38,964 nt of DNA from a virus. How positions within the stretch are numbered: position 1 is the first letter of the stretch; every line of letters begins with the position of its first letter. Both the position numbers and the translations under genes were made by a program. The notes under the pieces were generated by a model, which was given only the letters and a program-made list of their open reading frames with translations, had not been told where the DNA came from and searched no databases. Below are positions 915 to 36,386 of the stretch, one piece after another. The DNA is taken from positions 1 to 38,964 of IMG/VR virus record IMGVR_UViG_3300036766_000289; one strand, 5' to 3'.

Positions 915-2468
915 ATGCCTACACCTGCCAATAGCATCAACGAAGCAACCACAGGAATCGTAGGATTTACCGGAACTGCATTTACTGCGACTGCTGTAAC
1001 AAATCATGCAGTGATCATTGGGGGTTCAACTTCTAGCACTCTGACTAATCTTGGGCCGACTGCTACGGCGGGGCAGGTCCTACAATCAGGAGGTGCAGCA
1101 GCCGATCCAGCTTTTAGCACTGCAACTTTTCCAGCAACCGCAACCGGAACAGGAACGATCCTAAGAGCAGATGGGACAAACTGGGTAGCGACAACGTCAA
1201 CCTATCCCAATACGAACGCAGTGAGCACGTTACTTTACGCTTCAAGCGCAAACGTTATGGCTGCCCTAGCAACAGGTAACAATGGACTTCTTGTAACCGG
1301 TAACACTGGCATACCTTCCATACTTGCCGGTCCAGGAACGACAGGCCAAGTCCTCCAGGCTAATGCCGCAGCTGCACCGAGTTACTCTACAGCTACCTAT
1401 CCCAGCGTTGGAACAGGAACTGGAACCATTTTGCGCGCAGATGGCACGAATTGGGTGGCTACTACTGCAACCTATCCCGCTACAACAACTGCTAGTCAGC
1501 TCCTATATTCTAGCGCAACAAGTGTAGTTGGTGGATTAACAACGGCAAACAACGGGATGTTGGTTACCAGCTCTGCCGGCGTCCCTTCGATTTTGGCAGG
1601 TCCAGGGACGACAGGAAACATCTTACAATCCAACGCGGCAGCCGCTCCCTCCTTCTCAACGGCCACTTATCCCGCTATTGCTACAGGAACAGGAACTCTG
1701 CTAAGAGCAGATGGGACTAATTGGGTAGCCACAACAAGCACTTATCCTAACACTAATGCTGTAAGCACATTACTTTATGCCTCTGCCTCGAACGTCATGA
1801 GTGCTTTAGCGACAGCAAACAATGGCCTTTATGTTACTGGAAATACTGGAATCCCTTCTATATTGGCTGGGCCTGGCACGACAGGGAATATGTTACAGGC
1901 TAACGCTGCGGCGGCTCCAAGTTATTCTACATCTACATATCCTGCAACTAATGCCGTAAGCACCTTATTATATGCTTCCTCATCTAACGTTATGGCCGCT
2001 CTCGCAACAGGTAACGATGGAGTATTGATTACTTCTCATACCGGTGTTCCTTCCTGGCTTGCTGGAGGAACTACAGGTCAAATTTTAACAGCTACAACAA
2101 ACTCCCCACCAACATGGGCTGCCGCAGCTGCTAGTCTAACATGGACTGTCATTACAGCGAATCAATCGGCAGTAGCAGCTAATGGCTATATCTGCAACAA
2201 GGCTGGCTTATTGGCTCTAACACTACCTGCCTCAGGAGCTATAGGAGACATTATCGAAGTCACCGGAATCAATACAGCGCTTGGATGGAGTATAGCTCAG
2301 AATGCTAACCAACAGATCTTCTTCGGCACATCTTCAACAACGGTAGGTGTTACAGGATCGATTGCAAGCGTAAATATTCGTGATTCCATAAAAATAGTCT
2401 GTGTAGTATCTGGGGCTAGCACAGTTTGGAACGTAACAAGTGCAATTGGTAACGTTACGGTAACATAA
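915..2468 (+). CDS. Repetitive tail fibre protein, 517 aa
   Basis: A Thr/Ala/Ser-rich protein made of long internal repeats. Units of roughly 90 residues contain RADGTNWVATT, then a LLYAS-NVM-AL segment, then GIPSILAGPGTTG and AAAAPSYST; about three full copies and one shorter copy occupy residues 70-390. Residues 1-60 (ANSIN...TTGIVG-TGTAFT...GGSTSST) match the N terminus of the glycine-rich fibre beginning at 38472. The last 110 residues (LTLPASGAIGD...) resemble the C-terminal domain of the fibre at 37523-38461. The TAA stop overlaps the ATG of the next gene (TAATG). Inferred role: receptor-binding fibre with a shared anchoring domain. Confidence 0.8.
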   Translation: MPTPANSINEATTGIVGFTGTAFTATAVTNHAVIIGGSTSSTLTNLGPTATAGQVLQSGGAAADPAFSTATFPATATGTGTILRADGTNWVATTSTYPNTNAVSTLLYASSANVMAALATGNNGLLVTGNTGIPSILAGPGTTGQVLQANAAAAPSYSTATYPSVGTGTGTILRADGTNWVATTATYPATTTASQLLYSSATSVVGGLTTANNGMLVTSSAGVPSILAGPGTTGNILQSNAAAAPSFSTATYPAIATGTGTLLRADGTNWVATTSTYPNTNAVSTLLYASASNVMSALATANNGLYVTGNTGIPSILAGPGTTGNMLQANAAAAPSYSTSTYPATNAVSTLLYASSSNVMAALATGNDGVLITSHTGVPSWLAGGTTGQILTATTNSPPTWAAAAASLTWTVITANQSAVAANGYICNKAGLLALTLPASGAIGDIIEVTGINTALGWSIAQNANQQIFFGTSSTTVGVTGSIASVNIRDSIKIVCVVSGASTVWNVTSAIGNVTVT

Positions 2469-2944
2469 TGGCTCTACAAAATACAACGAACTCAAAAAAT
2501 TCTTTCCTACAATTTGTTAGCGCTTCTACGGCTACGGTGGCTACTTGCTCTACAGCTATGCCAGCCGATGATACGATACCACAAAAAACAGAAGGGGATG
2601 AAATTGTTACGGTAAGTATAACACCAAAATCAGCTACTTCTGTATTGCAAATTCAATATACTGGATTTGTGACAAAAGATTCTACTACCGGAACAATTCA
2701 AGTTGGTCTTTTCCAAGACACCACAGCCAACGCCTTAACTGCTAAATCTTTTGCAATTACAACCTTACAAGATAGGTCTGTTAATATTTTGTATACAATG
2801 ACTTCAGGGACAACCAGCTCAACCACATTTAAGATTAGGATAGGACCAGGAGCAAATAGTGCTTATACAAACGCAAATGATGCTGGGACAAGATTATATG
2901 GTGGTGTAGCTTTTTCATTAATAACCATAATTGAGCACTTATGA
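2468..2944 (+). CDS. Virion-type paralogue A of a tandem triplet, 158 aa
   Basis: First of three tandem, related proteins. Shared blocks are S-x-S-T-A near residue 20, P-A-D-D-T-I-P-Q, S-I-T-P-K-S, L-F-Q-D-T-T-A-N-A-L, M-T-S-G-T-T-S-S-T-T-F-K and a C-terminal G-G-V...I-I-E. The pattern suggests a compact all-beta (jelly-roll-like) domain as found in phage host-binding tips. Its start overlaps the previous stop, and its own TGA overlaps the next ATG (ATGA), so the triplet is probably translationally coupled. No enzyme motif is visible. Confidence 0.75.
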   Translation: MALQNTTNSKNSFLQFVSASTATVATCSTAMPADDTIPQKTEGDEIVTVSITPKSATSVLQIQYTGFVTKDSTTGTIQVGLFQDTTANALTAKSFAITTLQDRSVNILYTMTSGTTSSTTFKIRIGPGANSAYTNANDAGTRLYGGVAFSLITIIEHL

Positions 2945-3420
2945 CGCAAAATTCTATAAATACATCAAATGTCTTGCTTCAGAGTGTTTCGACATCCACA
3001 GCTGCTGTAATCAATTGTAGTACAACAATACCAGACGATAACACAATTCCTCAGCAATCTACGGAGGGAACTGCTGTTTTAAGCCTTAGTATAACACCAA
3101 ATTCAACGACAACGATACTTGAAATCTTATTTTCAAGTATCGGAACAAAAGATGGAACTGGAGATGCTTCACAGACTGCTCTATTCCAAGATTCAACAGA
3201 AAATGCAATTGCAGCAACAGATTATGATGTTAATGCGGCTAGATCAAACACATGCTACCTAAGGCATATTATAACCTCAGGGACAACGAGCTCAACAACA
3301 TTTAAAATAAAAGTAGGATGTGGCGTTGGCACTTTTTATATAAATGGCGACACTTCAGGAGGTAGATTAATGGGTGGTGTATCTAATACATGTCTCGTAA
3401 TAAATGAGTATTTAGTATGA
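2941..3420 (+). CDS. Virion-type paralogue B of a tandem triplet, 159 aa
   Basis: Second member of the triplet. It keeps the P-D-D-N-T-I-P-Q, S-I-T-P-N-S, A-L-F-Q-D-S-T, I-T-S-G-T-T-S-S-T-T-F-K-I-K-V-G and G-G-R-L-M-G-G-V blocks, with divergent residues between them. It starts at the ATGA overlap with paralogue A and ends at an ATGA overlap with paralogue C. Duplication followed by divergence of surface segments is the simplest explanation. Probably a beta-sandwich fibre tip or decoration protein. Confidence 0.75.
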   Translation: MTQNSINTSNVLLQSVSTSTAAVINCSTTIPDDNTIPQQSTEGTAVLSLSITPNSTTTILEILFSSIGTKDGTGDASQTALFQDSTENAIAATDYDVNAARSNTCYLRHIITSGTTSSTTFKIKVGCGVGTFYINGDTSGGRLMGGVSNTCLVINEYLV

Positions 3421-3881
3421 CACAAAACAATATAAATACAGGATCTAGAATCCTTCAAAGACTTTCTGTTTCTACAGCATCTATTATCACAGGAAATGTA
3501 ACAACTCCTGCTGATGATACGATCCCTCAACTCTCAGAATCTGTTTCAATTGTAACATTAGCAATAACTCCAAAATCGGCAGTATCGACACTTTTGATAG
3601 AGTTAACTTGTAAGACTTCAGTTCATGCAACTACTACTTCTGGGACAGTGGCACTTTTCCAAGACTCTACAGCTAACGCTTTAACTGCTATGTATCGCAG
3701 AGGATTTGGTGACAATATCTTACGATACGTAATGACTTCAGGGACAATCAGCTCAACCACATTTAAGGCGCAGGTTGGACGTGTTGGAGGAACTGCATGT
3801 TATATAAACTCTGATACAGTAGGAGGAGGTCTAATGGGTGGCGTGATGTATGCGTGGTTAACGATTATTGAAATCTTATAA
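3417..3881 (+). CDS. Virion-type paralogue C of a tandem triplet, 154 aa
   Basis: Third member of the triplet. It has P-A-D-D-T-I-P-Q, A-I-T-P-K-S, A-L-F-Q-D-S-T-A-N-A-L, M-T-S-G-T-I-S-S-T-T-F-K and G-G-G-L-M-G-G-V. It is closer to paralogue B at both termini (MTQN-INT start, LMGGV end). The stop is followed immediately by an AGGAG site for the next small gene. Function inferred only from position among fibres. Confidence 0.75.
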   Translation: MTQNNINTGSRILQRLSVSTASIITGNVTTPADDTIPQLSESVSIVTLAITPKSAVSTLLIELTCKTSVHATTTSGTVALFQDSTANALTAMYRRGFGDNILRYVMTSGTISSTTFKAQVGRVGGTACYINSDTVGGGLMGGVMYAWLTIIEIL

Positions 3882-5760: not shown

Positions 5761-6612
5761 CTAAGTTTTCGATACTCTATAAAATTTCACGGCATCTTTC
5801 CTGAACTCTTCGAGATTCCTACCTCTAAGCTCTGGAATAGCCTTATAATCGATGCTTCCGGCTCTACCGGTAACGACGATCTTTACCCCACCACCGACCG
5901 TGTTTCTCTCTCCCGCGTCTATAATCAACTTCTCTCTAGCTTCTTTTTCTTTTCGGTCCCAATAATCCGATTGATCCTTAGCCTCTCGCCATTCCTTGCC
6001 TAGACGAATACGCTCCGCGGTTTCATGAGGCTCTATCTCTTTCTCGAGAAGGGGAGGGGCTTCGAACTTTAAAAGTCTCTCCCAAAAGCTCTCTTCAGCC
6101 TCGTTAAGCTGATTAATATAGCGGGTATCTCTTTTTACGTCAATAGGATAACCATTTTCTCCGTCATAGAAAAAATAGACGCATCGATCAAGTCCCGATA
6201 CTTCTAGCTGATGTTGAATCTGGCAATAGTGATAGTCCGGGATTACCCCTTTCTTGGCCCTTTCCAGGGCCGCTGCACCTCCCGTTTTGATTTCGAGTAT
6301 GAATGTATGCTGCGGATCAATTCCGTCCAGAGAGGCCGATTGCCAGGGCCTTTTGTCATGCTCGATGCAAAGGGGGCTGAATTTACATTGTAGCATCTCC
6401 ATAGCTAGGCTTCTAGCGGCCCCCTCCAATTCGTGTCCGCGATTCATTCTGGCCGTAACGAAAGGTTCCCATAAACCCAACTTATTCATGAAGAGTTGAT
6501 TTGGGGTCATGAAGCCAATCCCCTGGACCGATGGCGCGTCGGATCCTCCGATATGGTGCCTACGATAGGTCAACCATTCGGGGGTATTCTGTTCAAGCGT
6601 GATCACTTTCAT
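5761..6612 (-). CDS. YqaJ/lambda-exonuclease-type recombination nuclease, 283 aa
   Basis: Residues 21-27 (IGGSDAP), the R-G-H-E-L-E segment at 58-63, and the catalytic pattern D96 then E107-x-K109 (LDGID...LEIKTGG) match YqaJ-family viral recombinases of the PD-(D/E)XK fold. These degrade one strand from double-strand ends so an annealing protein can load. I use the second of two adjacent ATGs (6612), which overlaps the upstream TGA and is better spaced from AGGT. The ERF-type gene lies one gene upstream, so the pair forms a Red-like system. The C terminus (V-T-G-R-A-G-S-I-D-Y-K) is also typical of the family. Confidence 0.9.
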   Translation of the reverse strand: MKVITLEQNTPEWLTYRRHHIGGSDAPSVQGIGFMTPNQLFMNKLGLWEPFVTARMNRGHELEGAARSLAMEMLQCKFSPLCIEHDKRPWQSASLDGIDPQHTFILEIKTGGAAALERAKKGVIPDYHYCQIQHQLEVSGLDRCVYFFYDGENGYPIDVKRDTRYINQLNEAEESFWERLLKFEAPPLLEKEIEPHETAERIRLGKEWREAKDQSDYWDRKEKEAREKLIIDAGERNTVGGGVKIVVTGRAGSIDYKAIPELRGRNLEEFRKDAVKFYRVSKT

Positions 6613-6794
6613 CATTTACCTATCTCACACCGTTTGAGGGCCATTTTATAGCTTTCCGCTTTCTCACGTTCTTGAACCGCTATGACGGCTAATGCGTGCA
6701 TCGTAAGATTAATGGCGTCGCGCTCAGACAACATCTCGAGCCATTCGCTTAACCTGCTAATAGTATCTGCGACCAATTCATCGGCCCTATCCAT
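6612..6794 (-). CDS. Hypothetical helical protein, 60 aa
   Basis: A short acidic helical protein between the ERF and exonuclease genes. It has a perfect AGGAGGT five bases before the ATG, and its start lies inside the end of the ERF gene. The stop overlaps the exonuclease start. No known motif; possibly an accessory factor of the recombination pair. Confidence 0.7.
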   Translation of the reverse strand: MDRADELVADTISRLSEWLEMLSERDAINLTMHALAVIAVQEREKAESYKMALKRCEIGK

Positions 6795-7470
6795 TTGCTA
6801 CCTCCTGTTTTTTCTCCGATATAGCAGAAGGTTGTTTTAGAGACGCTATTTTTGCATTCAATCGCGATTTTACCTCTTCGTAAAACGTGGTAGTGATGTC
6901 GCTCATCAAAGAGAATCCTCTTTGTTTTATCCAATCCATGCAGCCTTTTACCGTTTCAGGAGGTACCTGGGCCAGTAAAGCCTCGATGTCTAGCGCCTGT
7001 TCAACCGAGATCTTTTTATCGGTGTCAAGCCGCTTTACAGGCTGGGCTGATCGTTGAGTCGAAGGTTTTCCCCGCCCGTGAGCCGCTTCGCCATCGTCAT
7101 CTTCCTCTTCATCGGAAACGATTCCTAGCATAGCTGAGAGGCTATATCTTTTAGCATATGTCATGGCTGATCCTATTGACTGGCTGTCCATTTTCATAGG
7201 GTTGAGAGGGAATTGTGACTTAATCCATTGTCCGGAAATATGGGCTAGCATTGTCACTAGGGTTAGCCTATCGCTTACAGTCTCGCAATATTGTAGCACT
7301 GAAAGTCCATTATCGGAAAGGGGAATACGGCAAGCGTCCATGCAGCTCGTGAAGTCCGCGTAACGGTTCTTGAAGTGGGGATTAACCCGGTTGAACGTGG
7401 CAGGCTTCATTTTACTCTGGGCTTTCGATAGGGCAGAAACGAGCTCATTTATGTTTTCGGTCTGGTTCAT
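6787..7470 (-). CDS. erf: ERF-family single-strand annealing protein, 227 aa
   Basis: N-P-H-F-K-N-R-Y-A-D-F at residues 30-40 and Q-S-I-G-S-A-M-T-Y-A-K-R-Y-S-L at 97-111, followed by M-L-G-I and an acidic run, are hallmarks of the ERF family (P22 Erf and relatives). These bind single-stranded DNA and promote annealing for phage recombination and circularisation. Three ATGs crowd the 5' end. GGAGG at 7476-7480 lies five bases before 7470, so MNQTENINEL is the likely start. The linker after residue 125 is basic and low complexity. First gene of the leftward recombination operon. Confidence 0.92.
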   Translation of the reverse strand: MNQTENINELVSALSKAQSKMKPATFNRVNPHFKNRYADFTSCMDACRIPLSDNGLSVLQYCETVSDRLTLVTMLAHISGQWIKSQFPLNPMKMDSQSIGSAMTYAKRYSLSAMLGIVSDEEEDDDGEAAHGRGKPSTQRSAQPVKRLDTDKKISVEQALDIEALLAQVPPETVKGCMDWIKQRGFSLMSDITTTFYEEVKSRLNAKIASLKQPSAISEKKQEVANG

Positions 7471-11778: not shown

Positions 11779-11835
11779 GAGTGCTAAGTTTTTTTGGCAG
11801 TATGCCGGAATTTCCGGCTAACTGATTTAGCACTC
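11779..11835. ncRNA. Nested stem-loop, candidate structured RNA
   Basis: A perfect nine-pair outer stem (GAGTGCTAA at 11779-11787 with TTAGCACTC at 11827-11835) encloses a second perfect hairpin, GCCGGAA and TTCCGGC around one T (11804-11818). An alternative GGCA/TGCC pairing is possible. It begins four bases after the stop of 11571-11774. No T run follows, so it is not a standard terminator. Candidate RNA element or a protein-bound cruciform. Confidence 0.5.
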
Positions 11836-13501: not shown

Positions 13502-13612
13502 ATGAAATATTTACTAGCACTTATGCTTTTGACGACAGCCGTACATGCTTGTGTGACTGGCCCAAAGAAAGATGGAACGTACACCATTGACCGTAGTGGT
13601 TGCGCAGAATAG
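13502..13612 (+). CDS. Small secreted protein, 36 aa
   Basis: A signal peptide (M-K-Y-L-L-A-L-M-L-L-T-T-A-V-H-A) followed by only 20 residues with two Cys. GAGGA lies six bases before the ATG, which follows the previous TAG without a gap. Its stop overlaps the linker of the first array hairpin. Could be a lipoprotein with a non-standard box. Confidence 0.55.
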   Translation: MKYLLALMLLTTAVHACVTGPKKDGTYTIDRSGCAE

Positions 13613-13880
13613 TTTTACCCTGTGCGTAGGAAACCGAGGTACCTATGGTTAGTTAATAGGCCCGATGCGCACAGGGGATTTGAGTTTTCTCTGCGACTAT
13701 GGGACGTTGAAATTCCAAAAGCCATCCTAAGGTGAAGTCGCAGAGAATTTAGTTTTCCTTGCGATTCCATTGGGTTGTGTAATCAGCTATCCATAGTGAG
13801 ATCGCAGGGATTTTGTTTGACCTACGGATATGGCGGAGAGGGTAGTATTCATGTCACAATTTGCGTATCCGTAGGGCTTT
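13611..13880 (+). ncRNA. Array of four tandem stem-loops, candidate novel RNA
   Basis: Four consecutive long stems of unrelated sequence. Unit 1: CCCTGTGCG 13618-13626 with CGCACAGGG 13668-13676. Unit 2: TTCTCTGCGACT 13687-13698 with its exact complement 13736-13747. Unit 3: TCCTTGCGAT 13756-13765 with ATCGCAGGGA 13801-13810 (one G-T). Unit 4: CCTACGGATA 13821-13830 with TATCCGTAGG 13866-13875, then GCTTTTT. Loops are 35-41 bases and stem starts are 64-71 bases apart. Linkers are alike (AGTTTT, GATTTGAGTTTT, AATTTAGTTTT, TTTTGTTTGA). I find no convincing gene inside. The last unit has terminator form. Confidence 0.75.
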
Positions 13881-13893
13881 TTAATGGAGGAAT

Positions 13894-14184
13894 ATGGCAG
13901 CGATTGATAAAACCTATGGAACACATGATGAATGGTTGCAGCTCCGAGCATGGCTCAAGGACCACTATCCCATTGCACTAAAACAACTCTATCCTGAGCC
14001 GCCTAGCGATGGAGAAGAATATTGTTTGAGCAATTTTACGTTCGAGACAGATCGATACCTCATACAGCATTGTGAACTGGAATTTGTGAGAACGGGGCTA
14101 ATTCATCAGGGATATGAGGTACCGGAGAATCCCGTTAAACTCCTGTTAAAAAAAAAGAGGGAAAATGCAAAGTCCCGTTTATGA
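13894..14184 (+). CDS. Conserved phage hypothetical protein, 96 aa
   Basis: TGGAGG three bases before the ATG, directly after the array. D-K-T-Y-G-T-H-D-E-W...A-W-L-K-D-H-Y-P, then L-S-N-F-T-F-E-T-D-R-Y-L-I-Q-H-C, resembles a short protein seen in many phages, of unknown function. A basic tail overlaps the next gene. Confidence 0.65.
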   Translation: MAAIDKTYGTHDEWLQLRAWLKDHYPIALKQLYPEPPSDGEEYCLSNFTFETDRYLIQHCELEFVRTGLIHQGYEVPENPVKLLLKKKRENAKSRL

Positions 14185-14344: not shown

Positions 14345-14562
14345 CACAATGGATTGCTAGAGTCACACCGCCGAAATATACCGGCATCTTTGAGGTAAAA
14401 TACGGCCACGGAGGACCCGTGAAAGCATTTTACTGTGGACTGACAAGGGGAGCCTGGATTAGGTTTCCGGTGAGAGCTGATGAGCAAGCTGGCGAGCAGC
14501 CTACGCACTGGAGAGTGTGCAATGAATCAATGATAGGATGGGAAAATGGATACAAAGGTTAA
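14341..14562 (+). CDS. Hypothetical protein, 73 aa
   Basis: Begins at the ATGA overlap and stops on the base before the tRNA gene, so the stop codon abuts the tRNA. Beta-rich, with W-I-R-F-P-V-R-A-D-E and H-W-R-V-C-N-E-S. No known domain. Confidence 0.6.
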   Translation: MTQWIARVTPPKYTGIFEVKYGHGGPVKAFYCGLTRGAWIRFPVRADEQAGEQPTHWRVCNESMIGWENGYKG

Positions 14563-14634
14563 GCTGGCATAGCTCAATGGTGGAGCACTCGCCTTGTAAG
14601 CGATAGGTTGTGGGTTCAAGTCCTACTGCCAGCA
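14563..14634 (+). tRNA. tRNA-Thr(UGU)
   Basis: Perfect seven-pair acceptor stem (GCTGGCA/TGCCAGC) with discriminator A, D arm GCTC...GAGC, anticodon loop CTTGTAA giving UGU, five-base variable loop, and T arm GTGGG-TTCAAGT-CCTAC. The outermost anticodon-stem pair (C-T) is mismatched. No CCA is encoded. It reads ACA, a frequent codon in the Thr-rich fibre genes of this phage, so a supply role during late expression is plausible. Confidence 0.93.
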
Positions 14635-14635
14635 T

Positions 14636-14839
14636 ATGCGAATAACACTCATCGCTCTCACTGCACTAGCATGTATAGCCCTAGCATATTGGTGGTATCT
14701 TGGAGGAAGCAAACCAGAAATAATCCCTCCAGAACCACCCAGGAGCCCTTCTCCAACATTCATAGATTTTAATGAGATGATGAGAACCACGAAAGAAATT
14801 GATAGACAGATTAGTGTTTACAATAATCCAGGGCTCTAG
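14636..14839 (+). CDS. Membrane-anchored Pro-rich protein, 67 aa
   Basis: The ATG lies one base after the tRNA 3' end with no ribosome site. Processing of the tRNA would leave a leaderless message starting U-AUG. Residues 3-22 are a signal anchor; then comes a Pro-rich segment (P-P-E-P-P-R-S-P-S-P) and a helical end. Function unknown; a possible envelope protein. Confidence 0.6.
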   Translation: MRITLIALTALACIALAYWWYLGGSKPEIIPPEPPRSPSPTFIDFNEMMRTTKEIDRQISVYNNPGL

Positions 14840-14852
14840 CTAAGCTCCGGCC

Positions 14853-16103
14853 ATGTACGAATGGAATGTAGAAACACGCAATATTAGTGAACTTAGGCCA
14901 CACCCCAAAAACCCTCGTTTTCTATCTAGGGAGAGGCATGCTTTATTAAAAGCAAGCCTAGAAAAATATGGAATGGTTGCGAAGCCTGAGGTTAATTTGG
15001 ATGGCCAGATCATCGGCGGCCATATGCGTATCAAGATTTGGGCCAAGCTTGGCAATAAAACAGTTCCTTGTAACTTACCCGACAGAATGCTTACTCCAGA
15101 TGAAATGGATGAGGCATGCATCCAGTTTAATCTAGTCACAGGTGATTGGGATCAGGATATTTTGACCAATCAATGGGATGTAAAAAAATTAATGGAGTAT
15201 GGCTTCACAGCCGAGCAGCTCTATGTTGAGCCTATCAAGCTGCCGGGTGGTGATGAGGATGATGATGGAACGCTTGAGCCCGGTAAAGACTCCGAAGCTC
15301 TCACAAAAATCGGAGACCTATATGAATTAGGCCCTCACAGGATAGTGTGTGGCGATAGTACGATGCCTGATGTCGTTGAGAAATGTCTGGGAGGGAATGA
15401 GCCTATTTTGATGGTCACCGATCCGCCTTATGGGGTTGAGTATGATCCTAACTGGAGAGAAAAAGCGACTAATGATGGAGGAAAAAGAGCTAAAGGTAAA
15501 GTTCAAAATGACGATAAAGTCAATTGGTCTTTAGCATGGCATCTTTTTCCAGGATCAGTCGCCTATATTTGGCATGCTGGTAAATATTGTGGAGAAGTTG
15601 AGAAGAGTTTAACCGATTCAGGTTTTGATATCGTTAGTCAAATTATATGGGTAAAACAACACTTTGCCCTCTCTCGTGGTGATTATCATTGGCAACATGA
15701 ACCTTGCTGGTATGCCGTCAAAAAAGGCCACGCTCACAATTGGCAAGGCTCCAGGAAAGAGGCTACAATCTGGGAGATATCTAATCTCAATGCTTTCGGT
15801 GGTAAAGCGGAAGAAGGCGAAGAGCGTACAGCCCATAGCACTCAAAAACCAATGGAATGTATGGCGAAGCCCATTCGTAACAATACAGCCGAAGGCGAAG
15901 GGGTTTACGACCCGTTCCTTGGCTCCGGGACTACCTTGATAGCTGCCGAGCAAAACGATCGTGTTTGTTATGGCATAGAGCTTTCCCCTGCCTATTGCGA
16001 TATCATCGTCAAGCGATGGGTAAAGTATGTGACAAAAAACGGTAAAGATGCTATAGTTAAGTTAAATGGTGAATTGATAAATTTTGATAAAAAAATGGAG
16101 TGA
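14853..16103 (+). CDS. ParB-like/DNA methyltransferase fusion, 416 aa
   Basis: N-terminal ParB/Srx-type domain with G-G-H-M-R at residues 55-59 (about residues 1-110). After an acidic linker (D-E-D-D-D) comes a beta-class DNA methyltransferase: catalytic D-P-P-Y at 190-193, then the AdoMet-binding D-P-F-L-G-S-G at 353-359. D-P-P-Y enzymes methylate the amino group of adenine or cytosine. The ParB domain probably helps bind DNA. It sits directly before the terminase genes, so DNA protection or marking at packaging is possible. The start lacks a clear ribosome site. Confidence 0.9.
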   Translation: MYEWNVETRNISELRPHPKNPRFLSRERHALLKASLEKYGMVAKPEVNLDGQIIGGHMRIKIWAKLGNKTVPCNLPDRMLTPDEMDEACIQFNLVTGDWDQDILTNQWDVKKLMEYGFTAEQLYVEPIKLPGGDEDDDGTLEPGKDSEALTKIGDLYELGPHRIVCGDSTMPDVVEKCLGGNEPILMVTDPPYGVEYDPNWREKATNDGGKRAKGKVQNDDKVNWSLAWHLFPGSVAYIWHAGKYCGEVEKSLTDSGFDIVSQIIWVKQHFALSRGDYHWQHEPCWYAVKKGHAHNWQGSRKEATIWEISNLNAFGGKAEEGEERTAHSTQKPMECMAKPIRNNTAEGEGVYDPFLGSGTTLIAAEQNDRVCYGIELSPAYCDIIVKRWVKYVTKNGKDAIVKLNGELINFDKKME

Positions 16104-16237: not shown

Positions 16238-16693
16238 ATGACAGAGGTGAAAAATACACACGGTGGATTTAGAGAGGGATCAGGTCGTCCTATCAAACCT
16301 ATTGATTGGGCTCGTGTAGATTTTAATCTGATGGCAGGCTCTACTCAAGAAGAAGTAGCGGCCGAATTAGGAATTCATAGACACACATTAAGTGCAAGAT
16401 TCTATGAAGAATTTGATCTTGATTATTCGACTTATTCGACACAAAAAGCACAGGCAGGCGAGCTGCATATTCGGGTAGCACAGTTCCAAAAAGCTTTGAA
16501 CAATAATGCCAAGGGAAATACCCAAATGCTGATTTGGTTGGGCAAGGTTCGTCTTGGTCAAAAAGAACCAGAAGCTATGTCGGGTGCGGTTCCCGAACAA
16601 GTTAATCTAGACAAAGATCATCGTCTCATGCAACTTGAGCACGAACTTGCTGTATTAAAAGGAATGAATGCCAACAAGCCCGAAACAGAATGA
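16238..16693 (+). CDS. terS: Terminase small subunit, 151 aa
   Basis: N terminus G-G-F-R-E-G-S-G-R-P, then a helix-turn-helix (S-T-Q-E-E-V-A-A-E-L-G-I-H-R-H-T-L at 35-51), a helical middle and a coiled C terminus. This matches small terminases that recognise packaging sites and form a ring. GAGG lies six bases before the ATG. Its 3' end overlaps the large subunit by 26 bases. Confidence 0.85.
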   Translation: MTEVKNTHGGFREGSGRPIKPIDWARVDFNLMAGSTQEEVAAELGIHRHTLSARFYEEFDLDYSTYSTQKAQAGELHIRVAQFQKALNNNAKGNTQMLIWLGKVRLGQKEPEAMSGAVPEQVNLDKDHRLMQLEHELAVLKGMNANKPETE

Positions 16694-23137: not shown

Positions 23138-23200
23138 AGCAAGTTAAATAAAATGTTGCCTAAATCATTGCTATTTGGTAGCTTGCAATTAGCTGATATC

Positions 23201-23275
23201 TGGTTTCGCTAACCACGGGCTGACTAACATACGATTTGCCCCTCGTAGGCTAATGACGTTCACCCTGCCAAGTGA
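23201..23275 (+). promoter_or_regulatory. Capsid-gene leader with three small hairpins
   Basis: TGGTT/AACCA (23201-23215), TACGA/TCGTA (23230-23247) and TCAC/GTGA (23260-23275) lie between the minus cassette and the capsid ribosome site GAGGT. Each is weak alone. A leader controlling abundant capsid expression is possible; no clear promoter was found. Confidence 0.3.
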
Positions 23276-23304
23276 GCAAAATTATTAACTTATGAGGTAC
23301 AATC

Positions 23305-24273
23305 ATGTCATTCCCATCCGGAATAACAAACATCAACAATATGGCCCCAGAATTGCCTGTACAGGCGTCTGAGGACCTATTGTCGACTCCAATGTTTAAC
23401 TTGATCCACTCCTTTGGAGTAGATCTACACCATGCCGAAGCCTATATCGGTAAAACAACTCGTATGTCTCGCTTTGAGCGCCTATCGACAGATGGCGGCC
23501 AACTTGATGGCTCGGGTATCGATCCAGCGTCTGAAGTTCCTGTACGTAGCGATATCGATGCTACAATGGAAATCTACGCTAAATCTATCGTTACCAACGA
23601 ACAAGTAGTCTTGTATGAAAACTCCAAGACACTCACTAAGTTCACAGCTCTTCTTGGGCAGTGGCTCCGTGAAAAAGAAGACTTGCTCATGCGTGACTTG
23701 TTTGCTAGCTCGGTATCCTATATCAACGCCACAGGCGGTTTGAACGGGGATCAGCCAAGCAATATCAGCAGAAATGACGTCAATAACATAGAAAGAATCT
23801 TGCTCGGCAACGATGCTAGAACGATGTTAACTAGTGTAGAAGCGACTAGAATGATTGGTACAGCAGGCGTAAGAGATGCTTTCATAGCTCTTGCCAATAC
23901 GAACCTATCAAGCGATCTGCAAAACGTTCAAGGGGTATTGCTGAAAAATGCTTATCCTACTCAAGAAGGGTTGAGACCAGAAGAGTATTGCTCGATCTCG
24001 CGCTTTAGATTCTTCGTCTCTTCGAAAGGGGCAAAAATCCCTGGCGCTTCGACACTCGGCAATACAGTCTATACGATCCCTATGTATGGTCTAGAAGCCG
24101 CTGCTAAAATAGAGCAGAACAACTATACAGCTGTAATTGGCTATCGCCCACCATGGGTTGTATCGTCGGTTGCACAAAACAGCCAACTCTATGCGAAGTT
24201 CGCGATTGCTCGTGCAATCACTAACCAAAACTGGATATCTGGCTTGAACGTAACAACTGCGCAAGCATCATAA
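23305..24273 (+). CDS. Major capsid protein, 322 aa
   Basis: Follows the scaffold module, has GAGGT six bases before the ATG and a size normal for HK97-fold coats. Blocks such as T-T-R-M-S-R-F-E-R-L, E-N-S-K-T-L-T-K-F-T-A-L-L-G-Q-W-L-R-E-K-E-D and the C-terminal I-A-R-A-I-T-N-Q-N-W resemble the N4 gp56 coat family. The assignment rests on order, length and this pattern. Confidence 0.75.
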   Translation: MSFPSGITNINNMAPELPVQASEDLLSTPMFNLIHSFGVDLHHAEAYIGKTTRMSRFERLSTDGGQLDGSGIDPASEVPVRSDIDATMEIYAKSIVTNEQVVLYENSKTLTKFTALLGQWLREKEDLLMRDLFASSVSYINATGGLNGDQPSNISRNDVNNIERILLGNDARTMLTSVEATRMIGTAGVRDAFIALANTNLSSDLQNVQGVLLKNAYPTQEGLRPEEYCSISRFRFFVSSKGAKIPGASTLGNTVYTIPMYGLEAAAKIEQNNYTAVIGYRPPWVVSSVAQNSQLYAKFAIARAITNQNWISGLNVTTAQAS

Positions 24274-33722: not shown

Positions 33723-36386
33723 ATGCCATACAATTCAAATGACCCTCTAGGGTACCTGGGGATCAATGAATCCCAACAACCAGACTTTTTAGTCGCTCAA
33801 AGAGCGCCTACAACTAACGATCTTCAACCTCCAGGAACTCGTTGGCAAGATGCTAGCGCTTCAGGAAAGCCGATTTATGAAACGGTTGGAGCGGGTGTAT
33901 GGGATCTTGGCGGAAACGTGGCTGCTACTACTACCACAGCTGGTATTATTCGTATAGCTACTGTCGCGGAAGCGGCCGCAGGTATTCTGACAACGGTTGC
34001 AGTTAACCCAGCTGCTTTAGCTGCTCTCACACTAGCTGGAGCCGTAGAAACCTCCACAACAAATGAAGGTATCGTAAAGCTCTCTACCAACGCACAAGCG
34101 GTTGCAGGAACGGCTGGTGTGGCCGGTGGTAATCAATTAGCTGTTCAGCCATCGAACTTAGCCTCAGTATTTGCTGCTGCTCCAGCAATTGGAGGCACAA
34201 CCCCAGCGGCAGCCGTGTTTACAACACTAGGCTTTACTACCGCTACAGGTACAGCTGGGGGCACATGGGCCTCAGGTGGTACAGCAATCAGTATTGGTGC
34301 CGATGCTACAACAGACACGATTAACATCGGTACGGGAGCTGCCGCTAGAACGATTCATATTGGCGATTCGACACAAGCTAATCTCGTTACGGTTGGATCT
34401 GCTACAGGAGCTGCTGCGTTGACACTTAAAGCCGGGACAGGAAACTTTGTTTTCACTACAGGTACCTCGACAACATTTACTGTTGGCGCTGCTACCACGA
34501 CGGGAACATGGGCATTAGGCGGAACAGCTCAAACAGGCACGATCACCCTAGGTAGCTCGTCAGGGACGAATATCATTGCGATTGGTGATGGTGCAGGTCA
34601 AACGACCGTCAATATCTCTAACAGCAATACAGCCGGTGCCGTCAATGTAGGTGCTGCTTTAACGGGCGGTACGATCACAATCGGCGGTACAGCACAGACG
34701 GGAACTATGACTCTAGGTAGTTCGTCAGGCACTAATACGATGATTATCGCTGGTGGTGCCGGTATCACGACACTTCAGATTGCTAATGCTCAAGTAGGTG
34801 GTAGCGTCGCAGTAGGCGCAGGCATGACTACGGGAACGATCACAATCGGTGGTACCGCTCACAATAGTGCTACAGCCATTACACTCGGTTCATCTTCAGC
34901 TGCTTCGACTGTGATTATCCAAGGTGGGGCCGGTGCCTCAACTACCCTAATTGCCGGTGGAACCGCTGGAGCTAACGTTACCAGCATAAACAACGGTGCG
35001 ACAGCTGCTAACTCAACTGTAAACGTTCTCTCAGGTGCAGCATCAGCCGGAACACATGCCGTTAATATCTTCACTGGTAATGCTTCAGGCGGTACACAGA
35101 CGTTTAACCTAGCCACAGGCACTAATGCTGTAGCTATCAACATCGGTACGGGTACTACAGGGGTTAAGACGATTGCAATCGGCGGTACAGCCGCTAACGT
35201 CATCACTATCGGTAACACCCAGACAACAGGGTCCGTAGCTGTAGGTAATGCTCTTACCTCGGGAACGATCACCTTAGGCGGTACAGCAGGTACAGGATTG
35301 ATCACAATCGGGGGTGCTACTAACGCCACTGGTCAGACAGTCAGCATCAATAGCGGTGCTTCCATTGCCGGAACAAACATTGTTTCGATCCTTGCTGGAG
35401 CTACTCCTGCTGCAAGTCAGACGTTCAACCTGATGACAGGTGTCGGATCTGCTGGTACATACGCTGTCAATATCTTGACAGGTGCTTCGACAGGTACCAC
35501 ACAGACAGTTGCAGTTGGTACAGGATCAGCTAGAACCGACATTACACTAGGTGGTACCGGTGCTAACGTATTTGCAATCAACAACACGACCACAACGGGA
35601 ACTGTTGCTGTTGGTAACGCAATGACGACGGGTACGATCGCCTTAGGTGGAGCTTCTCAAACTGGTCTGATTACGATTGGTAAGTCGACTCTCGGTCAAA
35701 CGATTGGGATTAACAACGCTGCCTCAAACACCGTGGCAAACATTGTTTCTATCCTCAATGGTGCGACACCTGGCGCTGATAACACCCTGAATATCATGAA
35801 TGGTGCAGGTACAGCCGGTACACAAACGATCAATATGTTGGCTTCAGGTGCTACTAGAGCCGGTGCAGTCAATATCGCTACAGGTATCGCAGCTCATGCT
35901 GTGACGATCGGTCAGGTTACAACAACAGTAGCTGTCAACGGTCCTACAACCCTCACGCTGGCCTCTGGTGCAGCTACAGGCTTGACCGTTACTACAGCAG
36001 CCGGATCTGGAACCGCTTCATCGTTCACCTCAAGCGCTGTAACGGTCCCAGACATACTCTCAGCAGTGGGCGGTATCAAAGTAACGCCTACAGCAGTAGC
36101 AGCAGGAGCCACTCCTCAGACATGCAACAACAGACATGGTCAAGTGATCTTTAATACCGTTAGCATAGCTGCGGGGGCTGTTCAGGCGTTTGTAATCGCT
36201 AACAGCACAATCACAGGGGTAAACACTCAGATCATGTACTCTATGTATGGTGCTACAACAGGATCTGCGCCCGTTATCCAATCTGTTGCGAATGCCGCAG
36301 GACAATCAACGATCACTGTGATGAACGGCACAGGATTGACGACAACCACAGCAAACATCACATTTGTTTACTGGGTGATGAATTAA
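33723..36386 (+). CDS. Long repetitive tail fibre, 887 aa
   Basis: The largest gene. N terminus D-P-L-G-Y-L-G-I-N, then W-D-L-G-G-N-V-A and fibre-type blocks, then over 600 residues of Gly/Thr/Ala repeats with the core T-I-T-I-G-G-T-A-x-T-G and L-G-S-S-S-G-T-N, probably a triple beta-helix shaft. The last 100 residues (C-N-N-R-H-G-Q-V-I-F) form a distinct beta domain. AGGAGCAAT precedes the ATG. Likely the main fibre or tailspike shaft. Confidence 0.8.
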   Translation: MPYNSNDPLGYLGINESQQPDFLVAQRAPTTNDLQPPGTRWQDASASGKPIYETVGAGVWDLGGNVAATTTTAGIIRIATVAEAAAGILTTVAVNPAALAALTLAGAVETSTTNEGIVKLSTNAQAVAGTAGVAGGNQLAVQPSNLASVFAAAPAIGGTTPAAAVFTTLGFTTATGTAGGTWASGGTAISIGADATTDTINIGTGAAARTIHIGDSTQANLVTVGSATGAAALTLKAGTGNFVFTTGTSTTFTVGAATTTGTWALGGTAQTGTITLGSSSGTNIIAIGDGAGQTTVNISNSNTAGAVNVGAALTGGTITIGGTAQTGTMTLGSSSGTNTMIIAGGAGITTLQIANAQVGGSVAVGAGMTTGTITIGGTAHNSATAITLGSSSAASTVIIQGGAGASTTLIAGGTAGANVTSINNGATAANSTVNVLSGAASAGTHAVNIFTGNASGGTQTFNLATGTNAVAINIGTGTTGVKTIAIGGTAANVITIGNTQTTGSVAVGNALTSGTITLGGTAGTGLITIGGATNATGQTVSINSGASIAGTNIVSILAGATPAASQTFNLMTGVGSAGTYAVNILTGASTGTTQTVAVGTGSARTDITLGGTGANVFAINNTTTTGTVAVGNAMTTGTIALGGASQTGLITIGKSTLGQTIGINNAASNTVANIVSILNGATPGADNTLNIMNGAGTAGTQTINMLASGATRAGAVNIATGIAAHAVTIGQVTTTVAVNGPTTLTLASGAATGLTVTTAAGSGTASSFTSSAVTVPDILSAVGGIKVTPTAVAAGATPQTCNNRHGQVIFNTVSIAAGAVQAFVIANSTITGVNTQIMYSMYGATTGSAPVIQSVANAAGQSTITVMNGTGLTTTTANITFVYWVMN

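Follow-up and report, generated by a model that had tools for sequence, protein, structure and literature searches.

The IMG/VR virus record IMGVR_UViG_3300036766_000289 (a soil phage of 38,964 bases, analyzed here over its whole length and called the window) carries an array of four tandem stem-loops at positions 13618 to 13875. The units lie in non-coding sequence, their closing stems differ from one another by compensatory changes, and the array is absent from the related phages that were searched. As a tentative explanation, we favor a processed array of duplicated hairpin RNAs that would act in trans.

Structure and covariation of the array

The array lies inside a 281-nucleotide (nt) non-coding gap and consists of four tandem stems of 11, 12, 11, and 12 base pairs (bp), with interiors of 37, 37, 33, and 31 nt between the arms. 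The initial annotation of this DNA, made from its letters alone, had described four consecutive stems of 9 to 12 pairs, which agrees with these values, and loops of 35 to 41 bases, which does not. Its spacing of 64 to 71 with U-rich linkers holds as well: unit starts are 69, 69, and 65 nt apart, and the linkers of 10, 8, and 10 nt are U-rich.

All units are given on the + strand. Unit 1 (U1; 13618 to 13676) is closed by an 11-bp stem (13618-13628/13666-13676) with one U-G pair; its interior contains a weak inner hairpin, CCUAU/AUAGG, and it scores 63 bits with a covariance model made from the four units. Unit 2 (U2; 13687 to 13747) has a perfect 12-bp stem (13687-13698/13736-13747; z = -3.8), and unit 3 (U3; 13756 to 13810) has an 11-bp stem with U-G pairs (13756-13766/13800-13810; z = -4.5). 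The 12-bp stem of unit 4 (U4; 13821 to 13875), formed by 13821-13832/13864-13875 with one U-G pair, is directly followed by GCUUUUU, the ending that had been reported for it. The linkers GATTTGAGTT (13677 to 13686), TTTAGTTT (13748 to 13755), and TTTTGTTTGA (13811 to 13820) all fit the RNase E-like consensus RNWUU, a loose motif that is expected anyway in U-rich sequence. The matches are thus compatible with cutting between the units, as a putative function of the linkers, and do not demonstrate it.

Randomized controls separated the array from chance. The folding energy of the array region is -98.5 kcal/mol (z = -3.7). With fixed stem scoring, the best tandem chain reached 110 in the window, compared with at most 66 after dinucleotide shuffling of the whole window (60 shuffles, none of which contained four stems) and with 72.5 for the best chain among 30 near-complete relatives. 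In 2,000 shuffles of the local region, four stems never arose and three stems arose once. The four-stem structure looks real.

The stems were next compared among the units. In a four-unit alignment (MAFFT alignment A2, 11-pair stem), standard pairs filled 95.2% of cells, compared with 80% in shuffles and 30 to 50% when the arms were slid. Two-sided compensatory change was found at 7 of the 11 stem pairs, and the covariation score was 0.636 (0.322 in shuffles and 0.05 to 0.18 when slid); none of 500 shuffles equaled the array on either covariation measure. Because alignment and structure derive from the same four sequences, the percentage paired is biased upward, but so many two-sided changes are not explained by this bias. 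The stems of U2 and U3 are set apart by one G-U change and two compensatory changes; wherever both units carry letters, no pair is broken. From these four paralogs of one genome, we infer that pairing of the stems is under selection. The covarying stems proposed in the initial annotation are thus seen at the level of paralogs, and its view that the units are duplicates of one RNA whose pairing is selected is supported.

U2 and U3 are clearly duplicates, being alike in both arms and loop, and U1 is probably a duplicate. Inside the 11- to 12-bp stems, every wobble (about three) is a U-G pair when read on the + strand and would be a C-A mismatch on the other strand. The tandem score is 110 for the + strand, compared with 99 for the - strand. 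The confinement of U-G pairs to one strand suggests that the array RNA is probably the + strand, although these few events are suggestive only.

Between a divergent region (∼11.3 to 12.3 kb) and the methyltransferase gene is a variable stretch of small genes that holds the array; the DNA methyltransferase and terminase genes lie downstream of this stretch. The upstream neighbor (13502 to 13612, + strand) is a 36-amino-acid (aa) lipoprotein-like open reading frame (ORF) without a family match whose stop is just 5' of the array. The downstream neighbor (13894 to 14184, + strand) is a 96-aa ORF that has a ribosome site of its own, GGAGG; it has no relatives and no family match, and its model is helical and of low confidence (predicted local distance difference test [pLDDT] score of 66, too low for a structure search). 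Protein coding in the interval had been named at the outset as a finding that would count against an RNA; the overlapping ORFs in the gap (51 to 68 aa) are chance-like and without support. Among the other small genes is a tRNA-Thr(UGU) gene (14563 to 14634); in 46 related loci scanned, tRNA genes were found only in L032 (tRNA-Arg) and L071 (tRNA-Asn).

By gene content and synteny, the window phage is grouped with phages of ∼38 kb, to which it shows 70 to 86% identity in TerL and 87 to 94% in the capsid protein. The members of this group come from metagenomes and one isolate-derived contig. The window encodes a terminase, a portal, RecE/Erf recombination proteins, and a ParB-methyltransferase. 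At 2468 to 3881 it also encodes three small proteins in tandem, probably tail or fiber parts, whose resemblance to the Pgp3 C-terminal domain (PF05475) is weak and below threshold. No prophage or host was found when the terminase was used as bait in bacterial genomes, which returned distant homologs only.

Relatives of the array were sought in several ways. When the four-unit covariance model was run over 1.16 Mb from 30 near-complete relatives and 69 other records, the array was its only true match; weak matches of 12 to 16 bits were not arrays, and the top candidates examined from tandem-hairpin scans of relatives were coding sequence or lone unrelated hairpins. Linker and arm patterns gave 9, 16, and 2 matches in 2.9 million viral contigs, none of them related, and blastn of the array and its neighborhood against 50,697 phage records returned only tRNA or chance matches. 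Among 4,227 Rfam families (gathering score, or plausible at E ≤ 10), only the tRNA at 14563 was matched, and sub-threshold small nucleolar RNA matches were discarded as noise; the array has no Rfam family, in keeping with the earlier description of it as an undescribed RNA. The neighboring genes, used as bait, had no relatives either, so synteny could not be used to locate a counterpart. By these searches, the array is an orphan among the roughly 100 records that are related or were compared; having no relatives, it would have been acquired recently or have arisen locally and evolved fast.

Possible roles of the array

The reading that we tentatively favor, at less than even confidence, is that one small structured RNA underwent tandem duplication to give the four-unit array, which would be transcribed on the + strand as part of the small-gene run. 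Selection would hold each closing stem paired and leave the interior free to vary. The transcript would be cut in the U-rich linkers to release separate, stable hairpin RNAs of ∼60 nt, and these may be trans-acting guides or decoys that work through their variable interiors. The roles offered in the initial annotation (processed small RNAs, a protein sponge, or a put-like element) are speculative. Stems that are kept and interiors that are free, in tandem copies, are best explained by separate hairpin RNAs with working interiors. Both flanking genes lie on the + strand and the downstream ribosome site lies outside U4, which fits this reading, and TIGR stem-loop arrays, variable phage hairpins that are processed at linkers, provide a precedent (PMC12045711).

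Several observations weigh against processed trans-acting RNAs. Homologs were found in none of the searches, and selection is therefore argued from four paralogs in one genome, among which U4 has the weakest sequence relation to the remaining units and is only weakly linked to them by kinship. The four interiors share no significant motif: loop likeness is confined to U2 and U3 (P = 0.002), with every other pair of loops unrelated. A GGG-N2-GT-like stretch had been noted in the loops, and a GG-N3-GT stretch is indeed present in all four (at 13647, 13701, 13772, and 13840), but an equally good common motif arises in 7 to 17% of shuffled loop sets and the stretch is not significant. As antisense to the phage's own sequence, the interiors matched no better than chance. 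Finally, no promoter or compact terminator was predicted near the array on the + strand, where promoter-like sites are at chance level.

A cis-acting role explains the same facts nearly as well and is nearly as likely. Here the hairpins would stay part of the mRNA and govern how stable the flanking messages are or how they are processed, as exonuclease barriers or as RNase III/E sites; this is possible, if doubtful. The array sits between codirectional genes, a few nucleotides past a stop and ∼10 nt before a ribosome site, and its stems are strong and selected while its loops vary. However, this role needs fewer than four tandem copies, related phages with similar operons lack the array, and the ribosome site of the ORF at 13894 is not within a stem. 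If cis-acting, the array would be an unusual four-fold mRNA element.

A feature at the DNA level, or a mutational artifact, without selection as RNA is unlikely. Inverted repeats could be kept by hairpin-templated repair or could serve as sites for dimeric proteins; relatives have long operator- or iteron-like inverted repeats in the divergent region, and template-switch repair is able to make matched changes on both arms. However, the half-sites match inside a unit and not between units, unlike operators, and U-G wobbles, which repair would remove, are retained on the + strand only (a weak point, with about three wobbles).

Other structured elements in the phage group

Non-coding DNA of the 30 near-complete relatives and the window is enriched about sixfold in strong hairpins (94, compared with 15.8 expected from shuffled sequence). 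Many of the enriched hairpins are terminator-like, and others lie in the divergent region with iteron-like repeats. One example is the repeated GGGCTAGACAC in the divergent region of G002 (16500 to 16690), whose window counterpart is at 11779 to 11835. About six near-identical short tandem palindromes, GTCGGATTTTCCGAC, each followed by a T-rich stretch, lie at 1490 to 1720 of L107 and look like a terminator or protein-binding array, and tandem long inverted repeats around TACCCCGACT lie just 5' of a methyltransferase gene in L109 (1117 to 1279).

A separate conserved leader RNA ends at the start codon of the major capsid gene in most group members (window, 23174 to 23307; L189, 1255 to 1334; L221, 600 to 679; and ∼20 further relatives). 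Its hairpin P1 (3 to 5 bp) encloses a loop with CCUCG; across 23 aligned leaders, 100% of P1 cells were paired, with 27 two-sided changes, and each of the four pairs in the apical hairpin P3 had two-sided changes (43 cells). The loop CCUCG is complementary to the ribosome site of the capsid gene, CGAGG. A downstream strand, P2, offers the 3' strand of P1 an alternative partner, and the stem so formed and P1 exclude each other. Both the CCUCG/CGAGG and P1/P2 pairings are kept across differing sequences, which suggests two exclusive folds. These folds may mask or free the ribosome site, as in a two-state translation switch. The leader had no match in Rfam. The capsid-leader model finds the leader in most of those near-complete relatives whose capsid gene is close, and weakly in the window. 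Kinship of the array with the leader was considered and rejected: model R2 had the capsid leader as its best match and matched nothing in the array.

A second match of the capsid-leader model (30.7 bits) in L239 (1632 to 1692; record G029) adjoins, on the 5' side, a structural gene homologous to window positions 33723 to 36386. In L202 (∼6300 to 6900; record G009), the leader hairpin precedes the aligned capsid start by 634 nt; the intervening structured sequence resembles an intron, and Rfam found no intron there.

Comparison with known systems

The initial annotation held that no family has this layout. That claim is incorrect, because TIGR stem-loop arrays share it. These arrays, described for two Tas clades and found in phages, consist of tandem stem-loops with stems that are "variable but consistently palindromic" and with variable interiors, and their transcripts are processed into single units at the linkers (PMC12045711). 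The window array is similar in its tandem stem-loops, variable palindromic stems, variable interiors, and short linkers; it has 4 units, compared with 13 in the published example. A TIGR-type guide array without a local Tas gene, carrying dual-spacer guides for a Tas protein of the host or of another element, or decoys against one, is nevertheless improbable. U2 and U3 fit the box C/D spacing with two 8- to 12-nt spacers (CYA-8-UG-x-CYA-7/8-UG), with one spacer of 7 nt, at a chance of 0.2% per unit; however, this pattern was fitted post hoc, is absent from U1 and U4, and the two units that carry it are paralogous and not independent.

The search for a Tas gene also argues against this explanation. 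The Pfam Nop family (PF01798) gave no match here, nor does it recover the published SpTasH of Salicola phage CGphi29; that test was therefore void, and PF02371, which detects SpTasH as a positive control, was used in its place. By PF02371, no Tas gene was found in the window record or in 36 relatives, although a very divergent Tas could escape, and phmmer with SpTasH gave nothing significant. SpTasH itself (L342, 14395 to 15324) was located through the adjoining dual-repeat array; over 14395 to 15750, the gene, annotated merely as a hypothetical protein, is followed by the array AAGCGAGCCA/AAGACAACCA. Since PF02371 catches TasH where Pfam Nop fails, it is useful for Tas searches. Membership of the window array in TIGR is not supported by these comparisons, and its orphan hairpins are unlikely to serve as guide RNAs, or as mimics of them, for an RNA-guided protein whose gene lies elsewhere, in a host or a rival element.

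HK022 put consists of two stem-loops near an early promoter. The window array is likewise a set of tandem phage stem-loops and a cis-acting candidate; by description, it differs as four long-loop units well inside an operon. Transcription control, by tandem terminators or put-like antitermination, is the least probable role, since the U-rich stretch 3' of each stem and the GCUUUUU after U4 are set against loops of 31 to 37 nt, interrupted U-tracts, a terminator scan that found none on the + strand from 12 to 15 kb, and the lack of a predicted promoter just upstream.

Type III toxin-antitoxin RNAs (ToxI, CptI, and TenpI) are near-identical repeats of ∼34 to 40 nt that form pseudoknots before an endoribonuclease toxin gene. 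The window array resembles them as tandem structured RNA units 5' of a small gene; it differs in that its units are 55 to 61 nt long, have diverged, and form no direct-repeat family, and the 96-aa protein encoded downstream (13894 to 14184) matches no endoribonuclease or other family. With CRISPR arrays and anti-CRISPR RNA mimics, the window array shares regular spacing and variable stretches, but constant direct repeats were not found in it, and its arms pair within a unit and differ between units. If the array does yield processed small RNAs, it would be a compact phage array in which the hairpin was fixed by evolution and the interior set free, a pattern expected for guides or decoys. In that case, it would also suggest that phages carry tandem stem-loop arrays without a recognizable Tas protein.
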